A stretch of 40,606 nt of DNA from Lachnospiraceae bacterium. GTDB taxonomy: Bacteria > Bacillota > Clostridia > Lachnospirales > Lachnospiraceae. The DNA lies in the NCBI GenBank assembly GCA_017399885.1, contig JAFQAU010000178.1:1-40606 (forward strand). The letters run 5' to 3'. Below, piece after piece: positions 69-29,025 of the stretch (its first letter is position 1; each line of letters begins with the position of its first letter). The notes beneath the pieces are model-generated. The model worked only from the letters and a program-made list of their open reading frames with translations. It did not search any database and was not told the DNA's origin. The translations under genes were made by a program, and so were the position numbers.

Positions 69-698
69 TCACAATCTATCTTGTCCTATTTTCTTAACAT
101 CTATCAATTGAGGATATCCCTGTATCTCGTTAAGCGTGCAGATATATCCCTGTCCATTGGCTACCTGAAAATTAAAATATTTACCACCGTAAAAAGTACT
201 CAGCAAAGACATGATGGTTCCACCATGTATCACTAACCCTGCTGTCATAGCACTGGTCATTTGATGCCGACTTTTCAGCTGTAACAACATTTTTTGAAAT
301 CCTTGTTTACATCGTTCTATAAAAACTTCTCTGCTCTCTCCATTTGGAAAAGGCAATGTGCCATTACTGTCAATCCACCTCTGATAGTATTCATTTGCCT
401 TTAATTCCATATAATTCTTTCCTTCAAAATCTCCAAAATCCATTTCTACCCATTCCGGTATCACTAAAATTTCTTGCTTAGGATAGAGTATCCGGGCAGT
501 TTGCATACAACGCTTCATAGGACTGGTAAAAAGATAATCGATAGAAGGATAGGCGTTTTTTGCTTCTTGTAATGCCCACTCTCCCTCCATGCTTAATCCT
601 TCATCTGTTCTACCAAGGTATCTATGCTCTTTATTGGAAGGCGTAGCACCATGACGAATCATCACTAATTTTATTTGATTCTCTGACCGATTCCACAT
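69..698 (-). CDS. cobC: Alpha-ribazole phosphatase CobC (histidine phosphatase family)
   Basis: This 209-residue protein is a histidine phosphatase. The phosphohistidine motif appears as MIRHGATPSN at residues 13-22, and the second active-site histidine lies in VIHGGTIMSLL in the C-terminal third. In the cobalamin pathway CobC removes the 5'-phosphate of alpha-ribazole phosphate or of adenosylcobalamin phosphate in the cytoplasm. The family also contains phosphoglycerate mutases and other phosphatases; the choice of CobC rests on its position between CobU-like, CobS and CbiB genes. The start overlaps the end of the upstream CobU-like gene by 28 bases, which fits translational coupling. The nearest good ribosome site, GAGGTGG, is about 10 bases from the ATG. 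A start at residue 13 cannot be excluded, but it would begin directly at the catalytic motif. Confidence 0.85.
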   Translation of the reverse strand: MWNRSENQIKLVMIRHGATPSNKEHRYLGRTDEGLSMEGEWALQEAKNAYPSIDYLFTSPMKRCMQTARILYPKQEILVIPEWVEMDFGDFEGKNYMELKANEYYQRWIDSNGTLPFPNGESREVFIERCKQGFQKMLLQLKSRHQMTSAMTAGLVIHGGTIMSLLSTFYGGKYFNFQVANGQGYICTLNEIQGYPQLIDVKKIGQDRL

Positions 699-1069
699 AT
701 CACTCGTACCACCTCATCTGCTTGCTCCGCCAGCTTTACCATAATTCTTCCTGTTCGCTCTCTGTATTCCCGTTCAAAACTGTCTATAGGCACAATTCCA
801 TTTCCAATCTCATCACTAATCACAATACAACCAGGAGCATTGCTTATAAATTCTAGTATTTCCTGCTCTGCATTCTTACCCTGCCTAATGCTTGCTCTCA
901 TCCACTCATGAAAGTGATTCACAATTACTGTTTTTCCATTGTCTTTTGACTCTTGTAATTGTTCTGCATTAGGAAGTTCACCATCTACAATACAAAAATC
1001 CGTTAACATATTCCCACCAAGCACATAATCCAATTTCCCTTGGAAGTATCCACCAATTACCAGCTTCAT
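671..1069 (-). CDS. Short CobU-like protein (cobinamide kinase/guanylyltransferase family)
   Basis: This 132-residue protein resembles a shortened CobU. Its C-terminal half carries SDEIGNGIVPIDSFEREYR followed by a GRI motif and an AEQADEV tail, which is the standard end of CobU. The N-terminal phosphate-binding loop is altered: GGYFQGKL at residues 6-13 keeps the Gly-x4-Gly-Lys pattern but has Leu where Ser or Thr should bind magnesium. The Arg-His segment that is guanylylated in full CobU is not recognisable. A normal 182-residue CobU is encoded two genes upstream, so this is a second, reduced copy. It may be a partner or regulatory subunit, or a GTPase-like protein with changed specificity; its activity cannot be read from the sequence. 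AGAGG lies 9 bases before the ATG. The stop overlaps the start of cobC. Confidence 0.75.
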   Translation of the reverse strand: MKLVIGGYFQGKLDYVLGGNMLTDFCIVDGELPNAEQLQESKDNGKTVIVNHFHEWMRASIRQGKNAEQEILEFISNAPGCIVISDEIGNGIVPIDSFEREYRERTGRIMVKLAEQADEVVRVICGIGQRIK

Positions 1070-1085
1070 CTAATATACCTCTATC

Positions 1086-1853
1086 TTACATCCATACTAT
1101 ATTAATTACTGCTACCGCAACCACCATACTACATTCACACAAAATCAAAAAATATCCTGCCGTATCCCCAGTAATTCCACCTAATTCTTTCTTACTGCGA
1201 TAATAGTAATAAACAAATGCACTAAGCGCTGCTATTACTACAATCATTCCGGCAAATAACGAACACCATAACATAAACAACATACATAATGTCCCTTGCA
1301 AATAAAGAGATACCTTCACAATATTCTTCCCCGCCTTGTTAGCAAAAGAATAAAGCAAGCCTTCCTTCTTGGCTAGCGGAAATGATACCACACTGATTCC
1401 ACTTAGACATCTGGATAAGAAAAATCCAGCACAAACAATCTGCAATAAATTCTTATCCCCTATTTCAGAAAAAGCTGCCATATACAATAATCCATAAACA
1501 CCTAACATAATAACTGCAAATGCGCCAATATGGGAATCTTTTAATATTTCCAATTTTTTCTCTGTAGGCTGATAAGAACCAAAAGCATCCATGGTATCCA
1601 TAAATCCATCCACATGAAATCCCCCTGTAATCAATAAAGGAATTGCTGTTCCTATCAATGTATAGCACAACAGACTAATTACATATTTTTCACAAATTAT
1701 TCCCCAAAAATAAACACAGCCACCGATCACCGCTCCTATCCACGGAAAAAAACAAAGCATATATTTCATATCCTCATCCTTCCACTGAAACTGTGGCATA
1801 GGAATTTTGGAATACATTGAAAATGCGATTATTATTGCTTTTACAATACGCAT
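1086..1853 (-). CDS. cobS: Adenosylcobinamide-GDP ribazoletransferase (cobalamin synthase) CobS
   Basis: CobS joins adenosylcobinamide-GDP to alpha-ribazole or its phosphate, the last assembly step of adenosylcobalamin, in the cytoplasmic membrane. The 255-residue length and several hydrophobic segments fit the family. The diagnostic acidic motifs are present: GGFHVDGFMDTMDA at about residues 77-90 and ILKDSHIGAF at about 103-112, which bind metal and substrate. The start ATG follows the cobU stop codon after one base, and the ribosome site GAAGGAAG lies inside the end of cobU, so the two genes are tightly coupled. A gap of 16 bases separates its stop from the next gene, the short CobU-like protein. 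Confidence 0.95.
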   Translation of the reverse strand: MRIVKAIIIAFSMYSKIPMPQFQWKDEDMKYMLCFFPWIGAVIGGCVYFWGIICEKYVISLLCYTLIGTAIPLLITGGFHVDGFMDTMDAFGSYQPTEKKLEILKDSHIGAFAVIMLGVYGLLYMAAFSEIGDKNLLQIVCAGFFLSRCLSGISVVSFPLAKKEGLLYSFANKAGKNIVKVSLYLQGTLCMLFMLWCSLFAGMIVVIAALSAFVYYYYRSKKELGGITGDTAGYFLILCECSMVVAVAVINIVWM

Positions 1854-1854
1854 A

Positions 1855-2403
1855 TTATCTTCCTTCTTTCACTATAATCGGAATTCCAACAACCACCTCA
1901 ATCACTTTATCTGCAATCTTAGCCAATTCCTGATTGATTTCCCCCATAGCCCTAATGTAATTCGTGGTTGTTTCATCATAAGTAATTCCGTCTTCAAACA
2001 CATTGTTCGTAACAATAATGAAATCCTTTATCGTTTTTAATAACTCTTCTATTCCACCAATAATACTTTTCTTTACCAATGCGCAGTTCCTTATCTGACC
2101 CGCACAGAACATCTCATTTGCCACCAAATTGGATATACACTCCAGTAAAGCAATATTTTCAACTGTGGTATTCTTTTCCATTTTATCCGCAACCTGATGA
2201 ATATCTGTTGACTGCTCAATAGTTATAAAACCTTTGCCTTGCCGCATTTTTTGATGCCTACAGACCCTTTCCTGCCCTTCCTCATCATATACCTGCATAG
2301 TGGCAATATAATATTTTCTATAATCTTTGGAAAGTTTCGTAATATAATCCTCTGCATAAGCAGACTTACCACTTCCGCTTCCTCCTGTAATCAATACCAA
2401 CAT
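1855..2403 (-). CDS. cobU: Bifunctional adenosylcobinamide kinase / guanylyltransferase CobU
   Basis: This is the full-length CobU of 182 residues. It phosphorylates adenosylcobinamide and then transfers GMP to give adenosylcobinamide-GDP, the substrate of CobS. The P-loop GGSGSGKS is at residues 7-14. The segment VCRHQKMRQGKGF around residue 50 supplies the histidine that carries GMP in characterised CobU proteins. The later acidic stretch LLECISNLVANEMF and the end IVTNNVFEDGI are in the expected places, although the usual VSNEVG motif is changed to VTNNVF. The ATG follows the cobT stop codon with no gap. The coexistence with the short CobU-like paralogue at 671-1069 is unusual. Confidence 0.93.
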   Translation of the reverse strand: MLVLITGGSGSGKSAYAEDYITKLSKDYRKYYIATMQVYDEEGQERVCRHQKMRQGKGFITIEQSTDIHQVADKMEKNTTVENIALLECISNLVANEMFCAGQIRNCALVKKSIIGGIEELLKTIKDFIIVTNNVFEDGITYDETTTNYIRAMGEINQELAKIADKVIEVVVGIPIIVKEGR

Positions 2404-3498
2404 TTAATTCAGCCTTTCATACTGCTCTATCCTCATATCATTAAAGGTTGTTTTTCCCTGATAGATACTTAGAGCCACATCCAATAATGCAAACATCATT
2501 ACTGCACCGGTCCCTTCACCTAATGCCAGATTTCCATCAATTACCGGCTCTAGCTCCAATTCCTTTGTAAGCATTGCGATAGCCGGCTCCTTTCCCTTAT
2601 GAGAAGGAATATAATACTCTTTTATTCCCGGAACCAATCGTTCTGCCAATAAAGCTGCTATCATACTAATGACTCCATCCAAAACAACAGGCAGATGACA
2701 CATTGCTCCACCAATACAAAGTCCCACAAGACCTGCAATATCAAAACCGCCTACTGTCTGGAGTACCGTTAAGGCATCTGCATGATACAAATCATATTTC
2801 TGAATTGCTTCTTCAATTACCTTCTGCTTCCTAGCAAGGCCGGTATCATTTAATCCGGCACCTCTTCCCGTTACTTTTTGTACTTCGCTCTTTAACAAAG
2901 CCGCAGCAATCGCACTGCTGGTCGTGGTATTGCCAATCCCCAATTCTCCAGTGGCAAGAATTTGGTATCCTCTGTTTTTACACCGGAATGCTATCTCTAT
3001 TCCTATCGCTATGGCACGGAGGGTTTCTGTTTCTGTCATAGCCGGCTCTTTCCTAAAATTTCTGGTACCACATCGTACTTTTCTAGAAATAACTCCCGCA
3101 ATAGATTCTTTTGAATTGATACCAATATCTATCGGAATGGTATCCGCTCCCACTGCCTTCGACATCTGCCCTACACAAGACTGCCCTTTTCCCATGGCTT
3201 TTGCAATCGCTACTGTAACCTCTTGCCCGGATTGACTAACCCCTTCCTCTACAATTCCATTATCCGCACACATAATGACTACAGCCTTCTTGGTAATATC
3301 AATTTCTTCCGTTCCTGTAATGGCACCTATCTTTGCAATAAGCGTTTCAAATTTTCCCATTCCATCTAAGGGTTTTGCAATGGCATCCCAATTCTTCAGT
3401 ACGTTTTTTTTGCATTTTTCATCCGGTTCATCAACCTTCAACTTTCTCAATTCTTCTCTTGTATAATCATTCCAGATGGGATTCTCCAAGCATTTCAT
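2404..3498 (-). CDS. cobT: Nicotinate-nucleotide--dimethylbenzimidazole phosphoribosyltransferase CobT
   Basis: CobT activates the lower-ligand base by exchanging it with nicotinate on nicotinate mononucleotide, giving alpha-ribazole phosphate for CobS. The 364-residue length is typical. Family motifs include PLDGMGKFE near residue 45, [16 protein letters not shown] in the middle, and GEGTGAVM near the C terminus, where Glu at about residue 328 corresponds to the catalytic base. The ATG lies 32 bases inside the end of cobQ in another frame, with GGAGG 6 bases upstream, so start choice is well supported. The lower-ligand base cannot be inferred: no BluB or bza genes for making dimethylbenzimidazole are visible in the window. 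Confidence 0.95.
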
Positions 3499-4933
3499 AG
3501 ATTTCCTCCATATTCAGATACATACGCAGAGTATCTGCCAACTTGTCATACTGCTTATCTTTAAAAGTCTGATAATCCTCAAACTCTCCATTTTCTATCT
3601 CAATTCCCTTTTTCTCTGCAAGTGCCTGTACCATTGTATTTGCAATAATTCCTTCATCAAACAATCCATGCACATAGGAACCATAAATGTTTTCATTCAT
3701 GTCTGATGTCACTACAATCTTTTCTTCTGTCCCCGACCTTCCCATATGTATTTCATAGCCTTTGAAAGTACAATCAGAAAGTACATGGAACAGTCCTCTT
3801 AATCTTTCAATCTTGCCCTCAACCTGACAACGTTTTTTTTTTGCCTCCAGTATGGTTGACACGGGGAGTAATTCCATCCCTCGCATTTGTCCACCTTCTT
3901 CCACACCTTCCGGGTCAAAAATCTCCTGACCTAACATTTGGTAGCCACCACAAATTCCAAACACCGGAATATCTTCTGCCAACTTCTTAACAGCAGCTTC
4001 CAAGCCATTCTGACGCATCCACTTCAAATCACCCATGGTATTTTTACTTCCGGGCAAGAAAATCATATCCGGATGGTGTAATTCACTGATGGATGTCACA
4101 TATCGCACTGTCACTTCAGGCATTTGTTCAAAAACATTCAAATCCGTAAAATTGGAAATTCTGGGATATCGGATTACGGCAATATTAATTAAACCTTCGC
4201 TTTTTCTGTCAAACCTCTCCGTCAGACTGTCCTCATCCTCCAAAGACAACTCCATGTATGGGATAACTCCTACCACCGGAACATTCCCCTTTTCTTCCAG
4301 CATTTCAATTCCCGGATCAAGAATGGATTTATCTCCACGAAACTTATTAATAATAAGTCCCTTTACTCTCCTTTTTTCTTTTTCCTCAAGCAACATCAAA
4401 GTTCCTAAAAGCTGTGCAAACACCCCGCCTCTGTCAATATCTCCCACCAAAAGAACTGGTGCGTCCACCATTTCAGCCATTCCCATATTTACAATGTCAT
4501 TCTGTTTTAAATTAATTTCCGCCGGACTTCCTGCTCCTTCAATTACAATAATATCCGCATATTCTTCCAACTTTTTAAAAGCCTTTTTAATATCGGGAAT
4601 CAATTTCTTCTTAAAGGCAAAGTAATCTCTGGCACTCATATTCCTGAGTACCTCACCATTTACAATTACCTGTGAGCCTGTATGATTGGTAGGTTTTAAT
4701 AAAATAGGATTCATACATACCATCGGCGGGGTTCCTGCTGCTTCCGCCTGCATAACCTGCGCTCTACCCATTTCCAATCCTTCCGATGTAATAAAGGAAT
4801 TTAACGCCATATTCTGGGATTTAAAAGGAGCCACCCTAAACCCGTCCTGTTTAAAAATTCTACACAAACCGGCTACCAGAAGGCTTTTTCCTGCATTAGA
4901 CATAGTTCCCTGTACCATGATTACCTTTGCCAT
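3467..4933 (-). CDS. cobQ: Cobyric acid synthase CobQ (CbiP)
   Basis: This glutamine-dependent amidotransferase amidates four carboxylates of adenosylcobyrinic acid a,c-diamide to make cobyric acid. The 488-residue protein has an N-terminal DTBS-like ATP-binding domain starting [14 protein letters not shown], with the MNPILLKP and [13 protein letters not shown] segments typical of the family. A C-terminal class I glutaminase-like domain carries the nucleophile Cys328 in [11 protein letters not shown] and the histidine in SYVHGLFD near residue 420. It lies 25 bases after the ABC ATPase gene and overlaps cobT by 32 bases. Its presence implies that the cell can start from cobyrinic acid a,c-diamide; corrin ring genes are not in this window and may lie left of position 1. 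Confidence 0.96.
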
Positions 4934-4958: not shown

Positions 4959-6062
4959 TTAACAATTCATTTCTATTTCCTTACCGGATTCTTTTGCAAA
5001 TTCCAACAATTCCATATTTGCCTGCTCCAATGTTCCAAAAGTTTCTTTACAGCAGATAATTTTATCACAGGCAGCCAACCTCTTTCGTGCCTTACGTATT
5101 TGTTCTTCCGTAATTGGCTCAAATGCCTCTGTAACAATTACATCTGTTGCCAGTACCCTTGCTACCGGATAGTCCAAATCATTTTGTGGTAAAATACCTG
5201 TTATAAAAGGAACGCCTTGTCTTTGTAATCTGCGGTATACATTTCTTCCGGTTCCACCACTCGCTATAACAAATACCTTTACTTCCCCTTTTGCAGGTTC
5301 TAATTCCATGCTTCCGTTCTCTTCATCAAAACTACCTGATTCTATAGAAAACAGCTTTGATATGTATCCCTGCTCAAAAACATCCTCCGGTTTTCCAAAA
5401 CGATCTACACGCTTTCCATCAATGCACAAAATTTTGTCAGATACTCTTTCTGCCAGATCTAATTCATGAAGAGACATAATTACTGTCAATCCCTTTTTCT
5501 TCCTCATTTCCTGTAAAATAGAGAGAAATTCCAGCTTATACTTTACATCCAGATAAGAGGTCGGTTCGTCTAAAATAATGATTTCCGGCTCCTGGCAAAT
5601 CGCTCTGGCAAGCATCACACGCTGCCTCTGCCCGTCACTAATGCGAGTAAAGTCCTGTTCCTTAATGGCAGTCACATGCACCAGCTCCATTGCTTCTTTT
5701 ACTACATGACGATCCGACTCAGACAAAATACCAAATCGTCCGGTATAAGGATATCTTCCGGTTGCCACCACATCTTCACAAGTCATCATTTCCGTTCGTA
5801 GTCTCTCCGTCAACACCACTGCCATATTCTGTGACAACTCTGTCCCCGACATATTTTCCACACTCTGCTCATCCAGATAAATTGTTCCGGCAATGAGTGC
5901 TAATTGCTTTGCAATGCTTTTTAAAACCGTGGATTTTCCCGCACCATTAGGACCTATCAGAGTCAATATTTCACCTTTTTCTAAACCAATTTCAATATCT
6001 TTAATAATTGGCTTATTATGATAACCTACACTTAAACTCTCTGTCTTGAAATAATATTTCAC
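4959..6062 (-). CDS. ABC transporter ATPase (cobalamin/iron-siderophore type) with extra C-terminal domain
   Basis: The first 250 residues form an ABC ATPase of the BtuD/FepC type that powers uptake through the adjacent permease. Walker A is GPNGAGKST at about residues 37-45, the signature is ISDGQRQR near 140, Walker B is [12 protein letters not shown] near 160-171, and the switch histidine is in MSLHELD. A further domain of about 105 residues follows, beginning [19 protein letters not shown]; it looks like a Rossmann-type alpha/beta fold and is absent from ordinary BtuD. I chose the GTG at 6062, which overlaps the permease stop (TAG) by one base and is preceded by GGGAGAAGG. A GTG at 6101 would add 13 residues but lacks a well-placed ribosome site. 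Substrate specificity is inferred from the cobalamin operon and its riboswitch. Confidence 0.9.
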
Positions 6063-7078
6063 TATGCCACCTTCTCCCTGCTTCGCCTTATCATAACCCA
6101 CAGCACTACCGGGGCTCCAAACACCGCTGTAACAGTACTGATACTAAGTTCTGTTGGAGCAAACATGGTTCTTGCCAACAAATCACAGAACAAGCAAAAT
6201 ACACTTCCGCCAAGGAAACAAGCTGGTATCATTAGAATCGGCTTTGCACTTCCCAAAAGGCTTTTTACCAAATGAGGTACTGCAACTCCTACAAAGGAAA
6301 TGGGACCTGCAAATGCTACAATACAAGCAGACAAAATACTGGATAAAATGACCAATGCCACCCTAAGAACCCTAATATTCACTCCCATATTTTGTGCATA
6401 AGATTCTCCTAACTGATAGGCATCAAGTGGCTTTGCCATAAAAAAGACAATAACAAATGTTAGTGCTATCACTACTGCCATAACAAGCACATTGTCCCAT
6501 GTCATTCCGGAAAAGCTACCTCTTGACCAATTGTGCAAATTTACAATTTCTGCATCATTTGCAAAGGTCACTACCAACTCTGTAACAGCCGAACAAATAT
6601 AACCAATCATCACACCACTTACTACCAGCATGGACATATTCTTCACCTTACGGGACATCAAAAGAACAAATCCCATGGATATCATAGCCCCCAGAAAAGC
6701 CGCGGCAATCAATGTCACAGAACTGACTCTGATAGCCTGTCCCATCAAAAATACCATAACAAGTGCTACAACCATTTTGGCTCCTGAAGAAATTCCTAAC
6801 ACAAAAGGTCCAACTATAGAATTGTGAAAAAAGGTCTGTAATAAATATCCTGCCAAAGCCAATGCTCCACCCAAAATCATTGCAGCCATGGTTCTGGGCA
6901 TTCGAATATCCCACAAGATTCTGCTATTGTTGATTTGCTGACCACCTATAGATACCATGATATCTTCCAAAGAAATTTTCACAGTTCCAATACACACATT
7001 CATGGCTACAAAAACAAGTACACTAATGCCAAGCAAAAGAAATGCAATGACATACCTTATTTTCCTACTATGCTGCAT
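6062..7078 (-). CDS. FecCD/BtuC-family ABC transporter permease
   Basis: This 338-residue integral membrane protein belongs to the FecCD/BtuC family and should form the homodimeric channel of the importer. The family signature is clear: RMPRTMAAMILGGALALAGY near residue 60, followed by NSIVGPFVLGISSGA. Around nine or ten hydrophobic helices are visible, as is the cytoplasmic coupling segment FAGPISFVGVAVPHLVKSLL, which contacts the ATPase. The ATG has a strong GAGGAGG ribosome site 7 bases upstream and lies 12 bases after the binding-protein gene. Family members carry cobalamin, cobinamide, heme or ferric siderophores; riboswitch control and the cob genes favour a corrinoid, but heme-like tetrapyrroles remain possible. 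Confidence 0.93.
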   Translation of the reverse strand: MQHSRKIRYVIAFLLLGISVLVFVAMNVCIGTVKISLEDIMVSIGGQQINNSRILWDIRMPRTMAAMILGGALALAGYLLQTFFHNSIVGPFVLGISSGAKMVVALVMVFLMGQAIRVSSVTLIAAAFLGAMISMGFVLLMSRKVKNMSMLVVSGVMIGYICSAVTELVVTFANDAEIVNLHNWSRGSFSGMTWDNVLVMAVVIALTFVIVFFMAKPLDAYQLGESYAQNMGVNIRVLRVALVILSSILSACIVAFAGPISFVGVAVPHLVKSLLGSAKPILMIPACFLGGSVFCLFCDLLARTMFAPTELSISTVTAVFGAPVVLWVMIRRSREKVA

Positions 7079-7090
7079 ATAATGCCTCCT

Positions 7091-8296
7091 CTACTCTAAG
7101 CGGAACAAATATTCCATTTCTGCTTCATCTTCACCTTGAAGCATGGAATGTATCTCTTCAATCAAATAGCCAATGGACATAGACTGCTGATACATATCAT
7201 TGGTGGTACACCATACATTACCATTCTGTACTGCTTTAAAATCTTTCAACACAGTACATTTATCCAGCAATTCTTCTATGGAATTCACCCCACCATCAAT
7301 AGAACTGTTGTAAATGATATAATCCACGTCCTTTGCACTGTTATAGAACTCTTCTACCTGCATATTCATGGTAGAGCGGCTTGACTCCGGATCACCTAAA
7401 TTCTCAAATATATACTTGCCACCTGCCAATTCAATCATTTTAGGTACATAGTCTGTACTTTGTCTTACCTGTACCAAACCATTGGACGTAATAAAGAAAA
7501 AAGCAACCGTCTGATCTGTTTTTTCATCCGCGGTTACTTTTTCCAAAATAGCCGCTTGTTTTACAAATGCTTCTTCTGCCTCAGCTTCTTTGCCTACCAA
7601 TGCTCCAAAAAATTTAATCCATTCCACTCTACCAAGAGGATGAGATTCATAACTGGAATACTCTATCATGACCGCTATCCCAAAATCCTCCATCATTTCA
7701 ATTACCTCTGGCGAATGAGAAATCATCGTATTCTCGATGGCAAGAGAACAATTCTCAGAAACAATTAACTCATAATCCGGTTTATTGTATTTTCCGGCAT
7801 ATAACATATTCCCATTAGCCATAGCTTCATTTGCAGCTTCAATATACCAATTACCTTCCTTTTGTCCCGAAAGTCTGATAGTATCAACTGCATCCAAGGA
7901 GTCAAACATATCCATTGCCGCAGTTGCCACCAAATACAGGTTTTCTATAGGCTGTTGCATTATGTACACATCCTCTTCTAAATCTTCCGGAACCGATTTT
8001 CCTTCCGGGACAACCAAAAGTTTTGTACCATCCTTTACCGTTAAAAGTTTGTATCCGCCGACATAATAGTCCACGGAGAAATTCTCTGCATATTTCAATT
8101 CCATGCTGCTTTCATATACAAGCTTTTCATTATTCTCTTCCGTGTTTTCTGTTTGTTCCAATACCGTGAAATTCTCACTTGTATCGGATGAAGTATTTTT
8201 TACAGAATCGGAAGAAGGACTGCCACAGCTACACAGCCCAAGCAGTCCCATCAAAAGTAAACAGCATATTGTTATTATCTTTTTTCTTCCTGTCAT
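7091..8296 (-). CDS. Substrate-binding lipoprotein of the corrinoid/iron-siderophore ABC importer
   Basis: The 401-residue protein begins with a lipoprotein signal: a charged start, a hydrophobic run and the lipobox LGLCSC (lipidated Cys at 22 or 24). A linker of about 40 residues rich in Ser, Thr, Asn and Glu follows, then a class III periplasmic-binding-protein fold. The segment GIAVMIEYSSYESHPLGRVE, followed by FFGALVGKEAEAE and the long interdomain helix, is characteristic of the BtuF/FhuD/FepB group. It should be anchored on the outer face of the membrane and deliver substrate to the permease encoded next. AGAGG lies upstream of the ATG. Ligand identity is inferred from the cobalamin operon only. 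Confidence 0.9.
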   Translation of the reverse strand: MTGRKKIITICCLLLMGLLGLCSCGSPSSDSVKNTSSDTSENFTVLEQTENTEENNEKLVYESSMELKYAENFSVDYYVGGYKLLTVKDGTKLLVVPEGKSVPEDLEEDVYIMQQPIENLYLVATAAMDMFDSLDAVDTIRLSGQKEGNWYIEAANEAMANGNMLYAGKYNKPDYELIVSENCSLAIENTMISHSPEVIEMMEDFGIAVMIEYSSYESHPLGRVEWIKFFGALVGKEAEAEEAFVKQAAILEKVTADEKTDQTVAFFFITSNGLVQVRQSTDYVPKMIELAGGKYIFENLGDPESSRSTMNMQVEEFYNSAKDVDYIIYNSSIDGGVNSIEELLDKCTVLKDFKAVQNGNVWCTTNDMYQQSMSIGYLIEEIHSMLQGEDEAEMEYLFRLE

Positions 8297-8308
8297 TTAT
8301 CCATCCTC

Positions 8309-9196
8309 TTATTTAACCGCCTCTATTGTATCCGAGCAAAAAGTAATTGAATACTCTATCTCATGCGGTCTACTCATTGCCACAGTATCACCTATAACAC
8401 TTATCGCTTCATCAAAAACTGTAACAGGAATTTCAAATACCGAATCTCCTTCTTTGTTAACAGGTAGATATTTTTCATCTCCAACAATCATATAATCATA
8501 ATACGGACTACTCCACTTCAAAGTAGCAATTACCGCATTACCTGATACCGTAATAAAAGCTGGCGATAAAATCTCAGCCTTTCCACTCCCACCTTCAAAG
8601 ATAATATCAATTGCATAACTGCCATCTTCTAAATCTATCTGTGTTTCCTTAACATTCACTATGGATGTATCTGCGGAATCTAAAGGCTGTGGATTAGAAA
8701 CAACTACTTTATGGTCATACCATTTTCCTTTTTTTCCAATTAAAGCAACATCAAATTCCTCTCCAATTATCGGAACAGGGATATCAAAACCATATACCTC
8801 ATCTGTCCATCCATCACTATAAGTAACACTATCCACCGTCGGTTCTAAAAGTATGGCATTTTCTTTCTTGGCATCCTCCGAAAGTCCCGGATAGAGGTTT
8901 ACAATATTCTGAGAACCAAGTGAAACATGAATTGTCATTTTCCCATCTTCCACTGTTAACGTTCCTTTACCATCATGGGCTTCATTTACTCGAAACATGG
9001 AACTGTCGGTATTAAACTCCGCCATATAAATTCCATCCGGCAGTACGTTTTCTTCTACTTCTGTTACTAGTTCTGTGTAAACAGCAGATCCGGTAACAGA
9101 AGCAGACTCCCTTTCACTGTCCTTATCGGAACATCCTCCAAATATAATACTTGTTAATATCAGTATTCCTATTATCAAAATGTGCTTTTTCTTCAT
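8309..9196 (-). CDS. Lipoprotein with two related beta-sandwich (NEAT-like) domains
   Basis: The 295-residue product is a lipoprotein: MKKK, a hydrophobic helix, then FGGC with the lipidated Cys at 22. Two domains of about 115 residues follow. Each begins with a DG-x-Y strand (DGIYMAEFNTDSSMFRV and DGSYAIDIIFEGGSG) and ends with a V-[YF]-x-[IF]-P-V segment (VYGFDIPVPII and VFEIPVTVFD) and a terminal strand. This layout resembles NEAT-type heme-binding domains and related extracellular beta-sandwiches, but I cannot confirm the family. It lies 13 bases after the chelatase gene and 13 bases before the binding-protein gene, so it is co-transcribed with them. A role in capturing tetrapyrrole or corrinoid at the cell surface is an inference from context. 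Confidence 0.7.
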   Translation of the reverse strand: MKKKHILIIGILILTSIIFGGCSDKDSERESASVTGSAVYTELVTEVEENVLPDGIYMAEFNTDSSMFRVNEAHDGKGTLTVEDGKMTIHVSLGSQNIVNLYPGLSEDAKKENAILLEPTVDSVTYSDGWTDEVYGFDIPVPIIGEEFDVALIGKKGKWYDHKVVVSNPQPLDSADTSIVNVKETQIDLEDGSYAIDIIFEGGSGKAEILSPAFITVSGNAVIATLKWSSPYYDYMIVGDEKYLPVNKEGDSVFEIPVTVFDEAISVIGDTVAMSRPHEIEYSITFCSDTIEAVK

Positions 9197-9208
9197 ACTA
9201 CATCCCTA

Positions 9209-10429
9209 TTATTTTAATACTGCTGCTGTATGATCTACATATATCTGCTGAATTGCTTCAATCTGACCAAGACCTTTAATCTGCGTGTCCACACTTTCAA
9301 ATTTTCCTGATGCAGTAAACATCGCATACCATGCATCTTCTTCTGTCCCTGCCATATCGTTATTCGCATGGTCTCCTGCTACTACCATTAAAGGACGTAG
9401 TACTACTTTTGTATAACCTGCCGCTGCAACATTTTCAATAATTGCATCTGCTAAAAATGCTTCATCACCTTCTACAGTTCCGATAAATACGTTATCATAA
9501 CCAAGCTCATTCATCTGAGTCTGCATCTGGCTATATGTAACCATTGCTGTATGATGTGTACCATGTCCCATAAATACAAATGCTGTCTTATCTTCCTTTG
9601 CCGCTTCAATACTGTCATAACCAGCATCTTTTACAACTTCGGCAGTAATAATTTCAGCAACTGCTTTCTTATCTTCGTTAATTACAGTTGCATCACTTCC
9701 CACTTCACCAAGTAAAGGTTCAGCAACACTTACAGACTCAAATTTGTCCTTATAAGTTTCTACAATTTCCATTAGTTCATCATATTCTGCCCCATGCATT
9801 AAATGAGTGGGCTGAATCACAAGATTTCTTACTCCGTTAGCAACCGCACGTTCTAATGCCTGCTCTACATTATCAATACATGCTCCTTCACGTGCTTGAA
9901 TATGGTTAATAATAATCTGTGCTGTAAATGCTCTTCTTACAGACCAATCCGGATATGCTGCCTGCAATGCATCTTCTATTCCCTTAATATCCGCAACACG
10001 ACTGTCATTAAATGATGTACCAAAGCTAACTACTAAAATTTCATTTTCTCCAATTTCATCCTGATTACGCACATCATCCTTAGAAGCATCACCTGTATCT
10101 CTTCCGAAATAATCAGGGTCAGCATTCTCACCTGCAACAAGTTCTTTCTGTGCATCTGTCAATGCATCCCAAGCTGCTTTTGCATCTGCACACTGCTTAT
10201 CTGTTTCATCAGTTCTTTCTTGTACATAAATTGCATCAATAAGGGCTGCAACCTCGTCTGCTGCTGCCTGATCATTATTTTCTCCTTCTGTTCCTTCTGT
10301 TTCCACATCTACCTGATTACTTTGCTCTGTCGCTGTTCCAGTTGTTTCTTCTACGTTGTTTCCGCAGCCGGTTACACATACGGCTACCATAAGTCCTGTC
10401 ATTAACATTGCCACTAATCTTTTTTTCAT
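9209..10429 (-). CDS. cbiK: CbiK-family sirohydrochlorin cobaltochelatase, exported as a lipoprotein
   Basis: CbiK-type chelatases insert cobalt into sirohydrochlorin in the anaerobic B12 pathway. The chelatase part (about residue 130 onward) keeps both metal-binding histidines: His209 in QPTHLMHGAEY and His354 in VAGDHANNDMAG; FMGHGTHH is also typical. Unlike cytoplasmic CbiK, this 406-residue protein starts with a lipoprotein signal (lipobox VTGC, Cys22), an acidic linker, and a helical segment WDALTDAQKEL at residues 87-97, so it should sit on the outer face of the membrane. It is the first gene after the B12 riboswitch and precedes a second lipoprotein and an ABC importer. Desulfovibrio vulgaris has a periplasmic relative (CbiKP), so export has precedent. 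A role in binding or carrying tetrapyrrole or cobalt, not synthesis, is possible. GAGG precedes the ATG. Confidence 0.9.
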   Translation of the reverse strand: MKKRLVAMLMTGLMVAVCVTGCGNNVEETTGTATEQSNQVDVETEGTEGENNDQAAADEVAALIDAIYVQERTDETDKQCADAKAAWDALTDAQKELVAGENADPDYFGRDTGDASKDDVRNQDEIGENEILVVSFGTSFNDSRVADIKGIEDALQAAYPDWSVRRAFTAQIIINHIQAREGACIDNVEQALERAVANGVRNLVIQPTHLMHGAEYDELMEIVETYKDKFESVSVAEPLLGEVGSDATVINEDKKAVAEIITAEVVKDAGYDSIEAAKEDKTAFVFMGHGTHHTAMVTYSQMQTQMNELGYDNVFIGTVEGDEAFLADAIIENVAAAGYTKVVLRPLMVVAGDHANNDMAGTEEDAWYAMFTASGKFESVDTQIKGLGQIEAIQQIYVDHTAAVLK

Positions 10430-10663: not shown

Positions 10664-10778
10664 GCACACAAAATAAATCTATCGGATTTTTTATCTTTAC
10701 AAATAAAAAATAAATCCAACAAATCATAACGTACAACCTTTTTACTCGTGGCTTGAAACAATCGTTTCTGTACAGCAT

Positions 10779-10944
10779 TCAGGCAGGTCTCCCGGCTTAA
10801 AGATCATCGCATTGGCCATCTTCCCAGTTTCCCAGTGATATCGCGGCTTCTACTCCCTAATTACGGTGACGAGTTCGCACAGGATTTGCACCTGTTTCCC
10901 TTTTCACCGGAGCCAGTCTTATATAAAACTGCTCCGACACCTGA
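10779..10944 (-). promoter_or_regulatory. Cobalamin riboswitch
   Basis: The minus-strand transcript contains the B12 box AAGCCGGGAGACCTGCC (10782-10798), the conserved core element AGGTGCAAATCCTGTGCG, and the GTCACCGTAAT and GGGAG-x-AGAAGCCGC segments in the canonical order. The closing P1 stem is TCAGG (10940-10944) with CCTGA (10779-10783). This class binds adenosylcobalamin and usually turns downstream genes off when B12 is plentiful. It controls the operon that begins with cbiK at 10429. The metY gene ends only 59 bases upstream with no terminator seen between them. Confidence 0.96.
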
Positions 10945-10967
10945 TTACTACATATTCAATTCTATCT

Positions 10968-11002: not shown

Positions 11003-12274
11003 TTACGCCAAAGCCTGCTTTAAATCATTAATTATGTCATTAACATCTTCTATACCTACTGATAATCGAATTAAATCCGGAGCAATACCAGCCTCTTCTA
11101 ACTGCTTATCTGTTAACTGACGATGAGTATGACTTGCGGGATGGAGTAAACACGTCTTAGCATCTGCTACATGAGTAACAATGGATACTAATTTTAATTT
11201 ATCCATAAAAGCTATAGAAGCACCCCTTCCTCCCTTAATACCAAACGCTAATACCCCGCATGTTCCATCCGGCATATACTTCTTTGCTAAATCATAATAT
11301 TCATCTCCCTCAAGGTCAGCATAATGTACCCAAGCTACCTTATCCTGCTCTTTTAAGAAATTTGCCACTGCAAGTGCATTTTCACAATGTTTTTTCATTC
11401 TTAAATGCAATGTTTCTAAGCCAATATTCAAATAGAACGCATTCTGTGGCGACTGAATCGAACCAAAGTCACGCATTAACTGAGCAGTTGCTTTTGTAAT
11501 GTAAGCTCCCTTACCAAATTTTTCTGCATACGTGATTCCATGATAAGACTCATCCGGTGTAGTAAGTCCCGGAAATTTATCTGCATATTTCGCCCAAACA
11601 AATTTACCGCTGTCTACAATACAGCCACCTACTCCGACACCATGCCCATCCATATATTTTGTTGTAGAATGTGTCACAATATCTGCTCCCCATTCAAATG
11701 GTCTACAATTTACAGGGGTAGCAAAAGTATTATCCACAATCAAAGGCACTCCATGAGAATGTGCAAGTCTGGCGAACTTCTCAAAATCAAAGATAGACAC
11801 TGTCGGATTGGTAATTGTTTCTCCGAATAATGCTTTGGTATTTGGCTTAAAATATTTTTCCAATTCTTCTTCTGGTAAATCCTGATCTACAAAAGTACAT
11901 TCAATTCCCATCTTCTTCATGGTAACACCAAACAAATTGTAGGTTCCTCCATAAATAGATGATGAGGCAATGAAATGGTCTCCAGCTTCGCAAATATTAA
12001 AAATCGCATAGAAATTTGCTGCCTGACCAGATGATGTAAGCATTGCAGCCACACCGCCCTCTAAAGCACAGATTTTTGCTGCTACTGCATCGTTGGTTGG
12101 ATTTTGCAATCTTGTATAAAAATATCCATCTGCCTCTAAATCAAATAATTTTCCCATTGCATCGCTGGTATCATATTTAAAAGTAGTGCTTTGGTATACC
12201 GGTAATTGTCTCGGCTCTCCCTGTGAAGGCTTCCATCCTTCATGAATACATTTTGTTTCAATTCCTGTTGACAT
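11003..12274 (-). CDS. metY: O-acetylhomoserine aminocarboxypropyltransferase (sulfhydrylase) MetY
   Basis: MetY is a PLP enzyme of the Cys/Met metabolism family. It converts O-acetylhomoserine and sulfide (or methanethiol) to homocysteine (or methionine) in the cytoplasm. The 423-residue length and sequence are typical: the N-terminal KCIHEGWKPSQGE, YTRLQNPTNDAVAAKI at about residues 53-68, and the PLP lysine Lys206 in THSTTKYMDGHG. The C-terminal TCLLHPASHTHRQL is also a MetY hallmark. A strong GAGGAGA ribosome site precedes the ATG. It has its own promoter at about 12324-12352 and is separated from the MATE gene by a terminator. MetA at 28117-29025 should supply its substrate. No S-box or T-box leader is visible upstream. 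Confidence 0.95.
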   Translation of the reverse strand: MSTGIETKCIHEGWKPSQGEPRQLPVYQSTTFKYDTSDAMGKLFDLEADGYFYTRLQNPTNDAVAAKICALEGGVAAMLTSSGQAANFYAIFNICEAGDHFIASSSIYGGTYNLFGVTMKKMGIECTFVDQDLPEEELEKYFKPNTKALFGETITNPTVSIFDFEKFARLAHSHGVPLIVDNTFATPVNCRPFEWGADIVTHSTTKYMDGHGVGVGGCIVDSGKFVWAKYADKFPGLTTPDESYHGITYAEKFGKGAYITKATAQLMRDFGSIQSPQNAFYLNIGLETLHLRMKKHCENALAVANFLKEQDKVAWVHYADLEGDEYYDLAKKYMPDGTCGVLAFGIKGGRGASIAFMDKLKLVSIVTHVADAKTCLLHPASHTHRQLTDKQLEEAGIAPDLIRLSVGIEDVNDIINDLKQALA

Positions 12275-19424: not shown

Positions 19425-20330
19425 TTATTTTACACATCCTACTAAATCATTAATATCTTTTATGTTATTTTCTTTCATAAAACTTTCAATTCCAGCAATT
19501 ACTTCTTCTGTAACCTTCGGATTATGAAAATTTGCTGTACCTATGGAAACTGCATTTGCACCAGCCATAATAAATTCCAGTGCATCTTCTGCATTCATAA
19601 TTCCGCCCATTCCAATAATTGGAATACTAACCGCTTGTGCAACCTGATATACCATTCGAACAGCAACCGGCTTTATTGCAGGACCAGATAATCCACCTGT
19701 TTTATTTGCCAATGCAAAGGTTCTACGATTAATATCTATTTTCATTCCAGTTAAAGTATTAATTAAGGAAAGTGCATCCGCTCCACCAGCTTCTGCCGCT
19801 AATGCCATCTCCGCAATATTAGTTACATTTGGGCTAAGTTTCATAATAACAGGCTGTTTTGCCCTTTTTTTCATTTCTTTTGTTATAGCTTCCACTGCTT
19901 TTGGATCTTGCCCAAATGCAATTCCACCTTCTTTTACGTTAGGACATGAGATATTTATCTCTAACATATCTACTTTTTCATCTGCCAAACGTTCTACTAC
20001 TTCACAATAATCCTCAGTGCTTTTACCACAAACATTTACGATAATTTTAGTATCTGCAAATTTCTGCAAATATGGAATATCCCTTTGACAAAATAGATCA
20101 ATTCCAGGATTCTGTAATCCAATGGCATTTATCATTCCACCGTATGTTTCTGCAATTCTTGGCGTAGGATTACCAGGCCATGGAACATTTGCTACTCCTT
20201 TTGTTGTAATCGCACCTATTTTATTTAAATCCACAAATTCACCATATTCTTTTCCGGAACCAAATGTTCCAGATGCAACTGTAACCGGATTATTCCACTC
20301 TACTCCGGCAATATTCACTTTCATATTCAT
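19425..20330 (-). CDS. pyrD: Dihydroorotate dehydrogenase, class 1B catalytic subunit PyrD
   Basis: PyrD oxidises dihydroorotate to orotate with FMN; class 1B enzymes pass electrons to NAD+ through PyrK. The 301-residue protein has the class 1 features NPVTVASGTFG at the N terminus, the catalytic Cys129 in NISCPNVKEGG, VIMKLSPNV, and the C-terminal GMGGIMNAEDALEFIMAGAN that holds the FMN phosphate. A cysteine base and a partner pyrK gene just upstream distinguish class 1B from class 2 enzymes. The ATG overlaps the pyrK stop by one base. It is the last gene before the terminator at 19312-19348. Confidence 0.97.
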   Translation of the reverse strand: MNMKVNIAGVEWNNPVTVASGTFGSGKEYGEFVDLNKIGAITTKGVANVPWPGNPTPRIAETYGGMINAIGLQNPGIDLFCQRDIPYLQKFADTKIIVNVCGKSTEDYCEVVERLADEKVDMLEINISCPNVKEGGIAFGQDPKAVEAITKEMKKRAKQPVIMKLSPNVTNIAEMALAAEAGGADALSLINTLTGMKIDINRRTFALANKTGGLSGPAIKPVAVRMVYQVAQAVSIPIIGMGGIMNAEDALEFIMAGANAVSIGTANFHNPKVTEEVIAGIESFMKENNIKDINDLVGCVK

Positions 20331-28116: not shown

Positions 28117-29025
28117 TCATAGTAAATCGTAAGGTGTGACCTGATATACAAAATAATTCAACCAATTGGTATACAATGCGTTTGCATGGGAACGCCATGT
28201 AAGTTTAGGCTGATTATTACAATTATCATCAGGATAATAGTTCTTTGGAATAGCAATCTCAAGTCCTTTTCCCTTATCTCTTTTGTATTCCTCATCAAGT
28301 GTCAGCCTGTCATACTCCGGATGCCCCATCAAGAATATTTGCTTCCCTGTTTGATCAGAAACAATCAAGGCACCTGCTTCCTCGGAATCTGCCAGGATTA
28401 CCAACTCTTCTTTCTCCTTTATCTTATCAATTGGCGCTTCCGTATGTCTAGAATGTGGTGCCAAAAAACAATCATCAAAACCTCTTAGCAAAGGACTCTT
28501 TCTTTGCTTTACCTGATGCCAATATATTCCAAACATTTTATTTTCTAAATCTCTTTTTTCTATACCATAATGGTAATATAATCCCGCTTGTGCACCCCAA
28601 CATATATGCATAGTAGACGTAATGTTACTCTTTGACCACTCCATAATCCTGGTTAATTCCTCCCAATACGTTACATCTTCAAATTTCATTTGTTCTACTG
28701 GCGCACCTGTAATTATTAATCCATCAAACTTTTGATGCTTCACATCTTCAAATGTCAAATAAAACTTATCCAAATGACTTGCCGCCGTATTTTTCCCTAC
28801 ATAACTTGCTGTTGTCAAAAATGTGACATCAACCTGCAATGGTGTATTCGACAAGCTTCTTAATAGCTGTACTTCTGTTATCTCCTTTAATGGCATTAGG
28901 TTTAATATTACAATCTGTAGTGGTCGAATATCCTGTTGAATTGCACGTCCCTCATCCATTATAAATATATTTTCATTCTCCAGCACCTTCTTAGCTGGCA
29001 AGTTACTCTGTACTTTTATAGGCAT
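28117..29025 (-). CDS. metA: Homoserine O-acetyltransferase MetA (Glu111 type)
   Basis: MetA acylates homoserine at the entry to methionine synthesis. The 302-residue protein has the nucleophile Cys142 in HICWGAQAGLYYHYG, APHSRHTEAP with the active-site histidine, and MGHPEYD. Residue 111 in TGAPVEQMKFEDVTYW is Glu, which in the studied Bacillus cereus enzyme selects acetyl-CoA; succinyl-CoA enzymes have Gly there. So the product should be O-acetylhomoserine, the substrate of MetY (11003-12274). GGGGAG precedes the ATG. It has its own promoter inside the end of ligA (29059-29087). No S-box or T-box leader is visible. Confidence 0.95.
   Translation of the reverse strand: MPIKVQSNLPAKKVLENENIFIMDEGRAIQQDIRPLQIVILNLMPLKEITEVQLLRSLSNTPLQVDVTFLTTASYVGKNTAASHLDKFYLTFEDVKHQKFDGLIITGAPVEQMKFEDVTYWEELTRIMEWSKSNITSTMHICWGAQAGLYYHYGIEKRDLENKMFGIYWHQVKQRKSPLLRGFDDCFLAPHSRHTEAPIDKIKEKEELVILADSEEAGALIVSDQTGKQIFLMGHPEYDRLTLDEEYKRDKGKGLEIAIPKNYYPDDNCNNQPKLTWRSHANALYTNWLNYFVYQVTPYDLL

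Follow-up and report, generated by a model that had tools for sequence, protein, structure and literature searches.

A riboswitch-headed surface chelatase and importer run of Lachnospiraceae, a candidate for loading cobalt into scavenged rings for vitamin B12 synthesis

Why should a bacterium place a CbiK-type chelatase on the outside of its cell, behind a cobalamin riboswitch? We addressed this question in a 40,606-nucleotide stretch of DNA from a Lachnospiraceae bacterium (contig JAFQAU010000178.1, assembly GCA_017399885.1; hereafter the window), where a gene run encodes an exported CbiK, a tandem NEAT-fold lipoprotein and an ATP-binding cassette (ABC) importer. We give an even chance to the proposal that this run serves to charge a scavenged ring of the sirohydrochlorin type with cobalt at the cell surface and to import the resulting cobalt-ring for vitamin B12 synthesis. 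The proposal builds on direct observations, namely the genes, export signals, riboswitch, metal site, NEAT fold (by model), gene neighbourhood with its fusions, and link to corrin genes in mostly ring-less genomes; everything from the loading step onward, including substrate, activity and direction of transfer, is predicted.

The run lies on the minus strand and is headed by a cobalamin riboswitch (RF00174) at 10765..10959 (101.7 bits, gathering threshold 31.5, E 1.8e-24). As the original prediction had stated, three consecutive lipoprotein genes follow: the CbiK-type chelatase (406 residues, 9209..10429), the NEAT-fold lipoprotein (295 residues, 8309..9196) and an ABC substrate-binding lipoprotein (401 residues, 7091..8296; PF01497, E 2.5e-26). 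A permease of the FecCD/BtuC type (6062..7078; PF01032, 1.6e-79) and an ABC ATPase resembling those of corrinoid importers (4959..6101; PF00005, PRK09536) come next. The permease scored best against the NCBIfam model BtuC (215 bits, below the cut-off of 334), and the ATPase against the corrinoid ATPase PRK09536 (222.6 bits, below the cut-off of 537). At the coding end of the ATPase gene (window 4959-5310), a C-terminal extension of about 115 residues past the ABC domain is partly matched by the corrinoid ATPase model.

The chelatase domain (about 9218-10039) passed Pfam PF06180 (235.7 bits, cut-off 26.2, E 7.5e-70) and stayed below the cut-off of NF047852, the NCBIfam equivalog for the B12-pathway enzyme (176.5 bits, cut-off 400). 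Its metal site, H289/E320/H354, is intact, which bears out the earlier claim about the two histidines, and the same His/Glu/His site was intact in 68/68 exported copies compared, a set other than the named loci described below. An AlphaFold model (mean pLDDT 69) was matched by Foldseek to Salmonella CbiK (1qgo, 9.9e-19), FetB (4.2e-16) and Desulfovibrio vulgaris CbiKP (1.2e-15). By sequence, the nearest solved relative is the Porphyromonas gingivalis haem-binding protein FetB, which we take to be IhtB.

The window CbiK carries a lipobox, so its location is predicted to be exported and not cytosolic. The 80 named loci hold 81 long copies, of which 71 have a predicted lipobox pattern, 8 another hydrophobic signal and 2 a doubtful upstream start. 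Predicted export signals are thus nearly universal, and nothing in them spoke against the signal peptide proposed earlier. No credible export signal was found in 30 NEAT-free CbiK proteins inspected: their start coincides with the chelatase core or lies close to it, their upstream start is doubtful, or another domain precedes CbiK in a fusion. The two kinds also differ in residues: R165 occurred in 68/68 exported copies vs Y in 27/30 NEAT-free ones, H176 in 62/68 vs K in 27/30, and M211 in 68/68 vs I in 24/30. In a CbiK tree of 99 rows, which gave long-branch warnings on some cytosolic rows, 69 exported copies fell on one side of a branch with support 100/99. In some NEAT-free copies an ABC-ATPase-like domain that looks CbiO-like by eye is fused ahead of CbiK (genomes G015, G198, G019, G021 and G150; loci L011, L021, L024, L027 and L030), and in one a methylase-like domain (G048, L026); such fusions are a cytosolic route of cobalt supply, the opposite of the surface set.

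Ahead of their chelatase domain, exported copies bear an N-terminal helical extension (window 10061-10288) with a TGDAS..NQD motif and a cysteine, C80, conserved in 133/149 exported copies. Locus L111 holds a second CbiK-like open reading frame at 20196 (347 residues), which lacks the His/Glu/His site and lies some 10 kb away from an exported copy that is intact. It is the sole named exception, in a set of loci found via two peptide patterns, one of which includes H354 and biases the H354 count there.

The second lipoprotein had been described as an unknown two-domain beta-sandwich. The two domains stood, and the protein is no longer unknown: by its model it consists of tandem NEAT-fold domains, N1 (about 8684-9043) and N2 (about 8321-8632), as in haem-relay proteins. 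Pfam NEAT PF05031 remained below cut-off on the window protein itself (14.7 bits vs 32.8, E 0.043) and reached E<=0.01 in 26/29 relatives. W159, Y160 and Y282 were invariant in 29 rows, and alignments to the known haem-ligand tyrosine stopped short of the beta7-beta8 hairpin.

The exported chelatase, the two domains and the importer are found together well beyond the window. The 80 named loci, those listed out of 592 confirmed stretches, come from carriers that include Faecalibacterium, Gemmiger, Fournierella, Pseudoflavonifractor, Eubacterium ramulus, Roseburia, Butyrivibrio and Kineothrix. N1 was nearby in 78 of them, N2 in 75, the binding protein in 68, the permease in 66 and the ATPase in 63; all five accompanied exported CbiK in 61/80, with several of the loci ending early. 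Fusions were seen between CbiK and N1 (19), CbiK, N1 and N2 (4), N2 and the binding protein (17), and N1, N2 and the binding protein (4). There was also a CbiK-N1-CbiK fusion (L064:8962-11766, 934 residues), with two exported-type CbiK domains flanking N1. The strong co-occurrence that the original prediction had called for was therefore found, and neighbourhood and fusions support a joint function. Because N1 is fused to CbiK and N2 to the binding protein, the fusions suggest a transfer path from CbiK through N1 and N2 to the binding protein.

Related architectures also occurred. Proteins of 906-1701 residues (L067:5392-9180, L068:4826-9931, L066:1695-4415 and L255:2388-5324) contain between one and three copies of N1, an N2 domain and an end resembling a binding protein, and downstream of each lie genes for a binding protein and a permease of this importer type. 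In G101, a riboswitch lies just upstream of a large N1/N2/binding-protein-like gene.

Our survey covered 200 genomes of the family (199 genera by tally; completeness at least 90% except for the window genome, at 83%), with CbiK, NEAT and riboswitch placements taken among the matches listed. CbiK was present in 120 genomes, NEAT-like matches in 93, cbiD in 120 and a cobalamin riboswitch in 172. A CbiK was counted as a surface copy if a NEAT match overlapped it or lay on the same strand at a distance of up to 2 kb. Of 68 such copies, one without a signal (G193, C46:94334) was dropped, leaving 67 exported copies in 65 genomes; G047 and G104, whose exported CbiK has no NEAT neighbour inside this limit, stand outside the 65. 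Exported CbiK beside or fused to NEAT thus occurred in 65/200 genomes, 65/65 of them with cbiD, and NEAT-adjacent CbiK was seen in 0/80 cbiD-negative genomes. A riboswitch preceded 58/67 exported copies (42 among the matches listed and 16 in 24 loci searched afterwards); among the other nine, one (G192) belongs to an already counted protein as its second CbiK domain, and L207 had fewer than 200 bases upstream. The survey and the named loci have genomes in common and are not independent.

This distribution bears on the name corrinoid importer, which had been given to the ABC set and now fits less well, since corrinoid salvage would be expected in cbiD-negative genomes. In a corrinoid capture relay, cobinamide or cobalamin would reach a BtuCD-type importer by way of the NEAT and binding proteins, and exported CbiK would only bind corrinoids or their degraded forms. 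Such a relay would suit the riboswitch at the head of the run, the best scores of permease and ATPase against BtuC and the corrinoid ATPase, and the nucleotide-loop genes that come next; however, it leaves unexplained both the fully conserved metal-insertion site and the persistence of corrin ring genes where ring-making genes were not found. Plain corrinoid salvage, once our first reading, was demoted to a rival by the 0/80 result, and we now regard the relay as unlikely.

The 65 carriers comprised 43 surface-only genomes (no other CbiK among the matches listed) and 22 with another, NEAT-free CbiK. In 49 cbiD-positive genomes every CbiK is NEAT-free, and 36 of these served as controls; the export signal was examined in 19/36, among which G182 showed a pattern resembling a lipobox, in an upstream stretch that is doubtful, and the other 13 genomes were searched for HemC alone (12/13, G006 weakly). 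HemC was found in 12/43 surface-only genomes vs 35/36 controls, CobA over cut-off in 14/43 vs 35/36, strong precorrin-2 dehydrogenase (PF13241, E<1e-15) in 15/43 vs 35/36, strong CbiM, the cobalt importer (E<1e-50), in 7/43 vs 26/36, and strong CbiL (E<1e-46) in 24/43 vs 36/36. The contrasts for HemC, CobA, dehydrogenase and CbiM gave Fisher p values from 5e-11 to 7e-7, ignoring the kinship of the genomes. Without G042, which has an unlisted second CbiK, the surface-only counts were 11/42 for HemC, 13/42 for CobA, 14/42 for dehydrogenase, 24/42 for CbiL and 7/42 for CbiM. HemC was present in 22/22 genomes with both CbiK kinds, and 31 of the 38 HemC-negative genomes among the 120 cbiD-positive ones had a surface CbiK. 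Since surface-only genomes mostly lack the ring genes that controls possess, the exported chelatase goes with corrin synthesis in the absence of the genome's own ring synthesis. On a FastTree of the 67 exported copies, the HemC label changed 18 times vs 22.4 in shuffles, with 19/500 shuffles as low and well-supported branches forcing only 3 changes, which suggests that HemC loss is scattered over this tree.

Two of the alternatives first offered for the exported chelatase agree best with this survey: that it metallates scavenged tetrapyrroles and that it captures cobalt. If cobalt ions themselves were the prey, exported CbiK and the importer would scavenge them and the ring would come by another route, in keeping with the scarcity of strong CbiM in surface-only genomes (7/43 vs 26/36). 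We hold this to be quite improbable: in known systems the ligands of NEAT domains and of FecCD permeases are the size of a ring, and in most surface-only genomes no other ring source is visible.

A role in iron or haem acquisition, in which exported CbiK would strip iron from haem or sirohaem and the NEAT domains would relay haem, draws on the haem-binding FetB as closest solved sequence relative and on haem binding by NEAT domains in Isd. IhtB of P. gingivalis is likewise thought to remove haem iron (PMC10913741). The run is controlled by B12 and not by iron, and its surface set occurs only with cbiD; haem scavenging was lowered by the 0/80 result, and we consider it very improbable.

We therefore return to cobalt loading of a scavenged ring. 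This reading best accounts for a chelatase with an intact site that is placed outside the cell and tied to corrin synthesis, that occurs as the only CbiK mostly where ring genes and the usual cobalt importer are missing, and that shares its genes' neighbourhood and fusions with NEAT domains and an importer for ring-sized ligands. An external sirohydrochlorin-type tetrapyrrole would first be captured, and exported CbiK would insert Co(II) into it, as cytosolic CbiK does. Once metallated, the ring would go to N1, then to N2 and from there to the binding protein, like haem in the NEAT relay of Isd, and permease and ATPase would bring the cobalt-ring in. The corrin genes would complete cobalamin, whose build-up would shut the run off via the riboswitch. 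A fuller version, which we advance tentatively and with less than even confidence, is that cobalt insertion has moved outside the cell: bacteria without their own ring, a cytosolic CbiK or the usual cobalt importer would load the rings of other organisms, import them via the NEAT-ABC relay and finish B12, and where CbiL is missing the imported ring would already be methylated at C20. Salvage of 5-aminolaevulinic acid (ALA) or porphobilinogen was rejected as a full explanation, being of no use to the 31/43 surface-only genomes in which HemC was not found.

Several results weigh against cobalt loading. CbiL was not found in 19/43 surface-only genomes, the window genome (G000) included, and a pathway fed with Co-sirohydrochlorin needs the CbiL step. 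These genomes keep CbiD and, where the cluster was read, also CbiF, G, H, JET and C. Three of them (G022, G042 and G161) have HemC, so an unrecognised CbiL replacement is possible. Twelve of the 43 surface-only genomes have HemC, CobA and precorrin-2 dehydrogenase together; they would make the ring inside while the sole CbiK seen is outside, and there a cytosolic chelatase of the Met8/CysG type could serve or the surface set could have another job. Both CbiK kinds occur in 22/65 carriers, and "no cytosolic CbiK" covers CbiK only, as the searches do not exclude CbiX or Met8-type chelatases. Seven cbiD-positive, HemC-negative genomes have no surface CbiK. Of the 80 cbiD-negative genomes 40 were tested, and in 36/40 HemC was likewise not found, so ring loss is widespread in this family rather than peculiar to the surface set; the distinctive feature is ring loss with cbiD kept. 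In the window genome, HemC, CobA over cut-off, strong PF13241 and CbiL were not found while cbiD and other corrin genes were present, and these absences are weak evidence because the assembly is only 83% complete. Its closest relative G111 (98% complete) showed the same pattern, with the corrin pathway kept and the early ring steps and CbiL not found.

No CbiL hidden in the corrin cluster was recognised among open reading frames of the stretches from G111, G003, G034 and G132. CbiL stands alone among unrelated genes in G007, G142, G151, G065, G136 and G160, all of which have the surface set; G065 has two copies. The lone CbiL loci are L249:5463-6143, L250:6112-6927, L251:5571-6257, L252:5771-6451, L253:5635-6291, L254:5533-6267 and L256:6003-6701.

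Downstream of the importer, on the same strand, the run continues with cobyric acid synthase CobQ/CbiP (3467..4933; 632 bits, cut-off 273), followed by genes named by eye as CobT-like (2404..3498, from its translation and with the same position in G111), CobU-like (1855..2403) and CobS-like (1086..1853). A second, partial CobU-like protein (671..1069; PF02283, 3.5e-13 over profile positions 63-167) and a CobC-like phosphatase (69..698, by eye) come next. Elsewhere in the window genome, contig C131 carries cbiA, a cbiJ-E-T fusion, cbiH, cbiG and cbiF, with cbiD (by search) and cbiC, cobD and cbiB (by eye) at its end. In G111 the surface, nucleotide-loop and corrin genes form one continuous run, with cbiB, cobD, cbiC, D, F, G, H, JET and A directly after cobC. 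This order suggested a junction of C131 with the left end of the window, but no sequence overlap was found. Two methionine genes, both named by eye, lie near the B12 run: one resembling O-acetylhomoserine lyase (window 11003-12274), directly upstream of the riboswitch, and, further on, one resembling MetA (28117-29025).

For bacteria that have a corrin pathway and no ring synthesis, this run offers a concrete, deletable candidate for a ring importer. If the proposal is true, it would explain how relatives without ring-making genes could still make vitamin B12. The run itself is present in genera with cultured members, such as Faecalibacterium, Gemmiger, Eubacterium ramulus, Butyrivibrio and Kineothrix. 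A gut survey lists CbiK/CbiX in its B12-producer rule (PMC6593275), and counting CbiK toward B12 prototrophy could misjudge organisms with an exported CbiK and missing ring genes.

In open-licence literature, no paper was found that joins a NEAT domain, cobalamin and a riboswitch, and none of the titles and abstract starts among the matches listed joins NEAT domains, exported CbiK and B12. Several known systems share parts of the run. Desulfovibrio vulgaris has a cytosolic CbiK. Its periplasmic CbiK (2xvx-2xvz) is exported like that of the window. In Desulfovibrio both cbiK-cbiL and btuCDF are under the control of a single B12 element, and a NEAT partner goes unmentioned in the passages concerned (PMC545781). 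Shelton et al. describe 180 tetrapyrrole precursor salvagers, mostly Firmicutes, that keep the corrin pathway and have lost early ring synthesis; they verified ALA dependence in three species, note that the class has received little study elsewhere, and in the passages concerned name no whole-ring importer (PMC6461909). Surface-only carriers resemble these salvagers in keeping cbiD while mostly lacking early ring genes.

In Isd, as generally understood, NEAT-fold surface proteins feed a PF01497-type binding protein and a FecCD-type permease, an arrangement shared by the window run, which differs in its control by B12 instead of iron, in its extra chelatase, and in its ligand, which may be something other than haem. 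The nearest known parallel is the Iht (Fet) system of P. gingivalis, IhtA-E, which combines a CbiK-family lipoprotein with a binding protein, permease and ATPase, IhtB being thought to strip haem iron (PMC10913741). A 2026 review ascribes to FetB the insertion of manganese into protoporphyrin (PMC13402209), and P. gingivalis too is without precorrin-2 synthesis (PMC6461909). The window run has the same core set of CbiK-like lipoprotein, binding protein, permease and ATPase, and a TonB-dependent receptor would not be expected beside it if its host is Gram-positive; where Iht has a TonB receptor and an assumed haem-iron role, the window run has NEAT domains, a cobalamin riboswitch and corrin genes.

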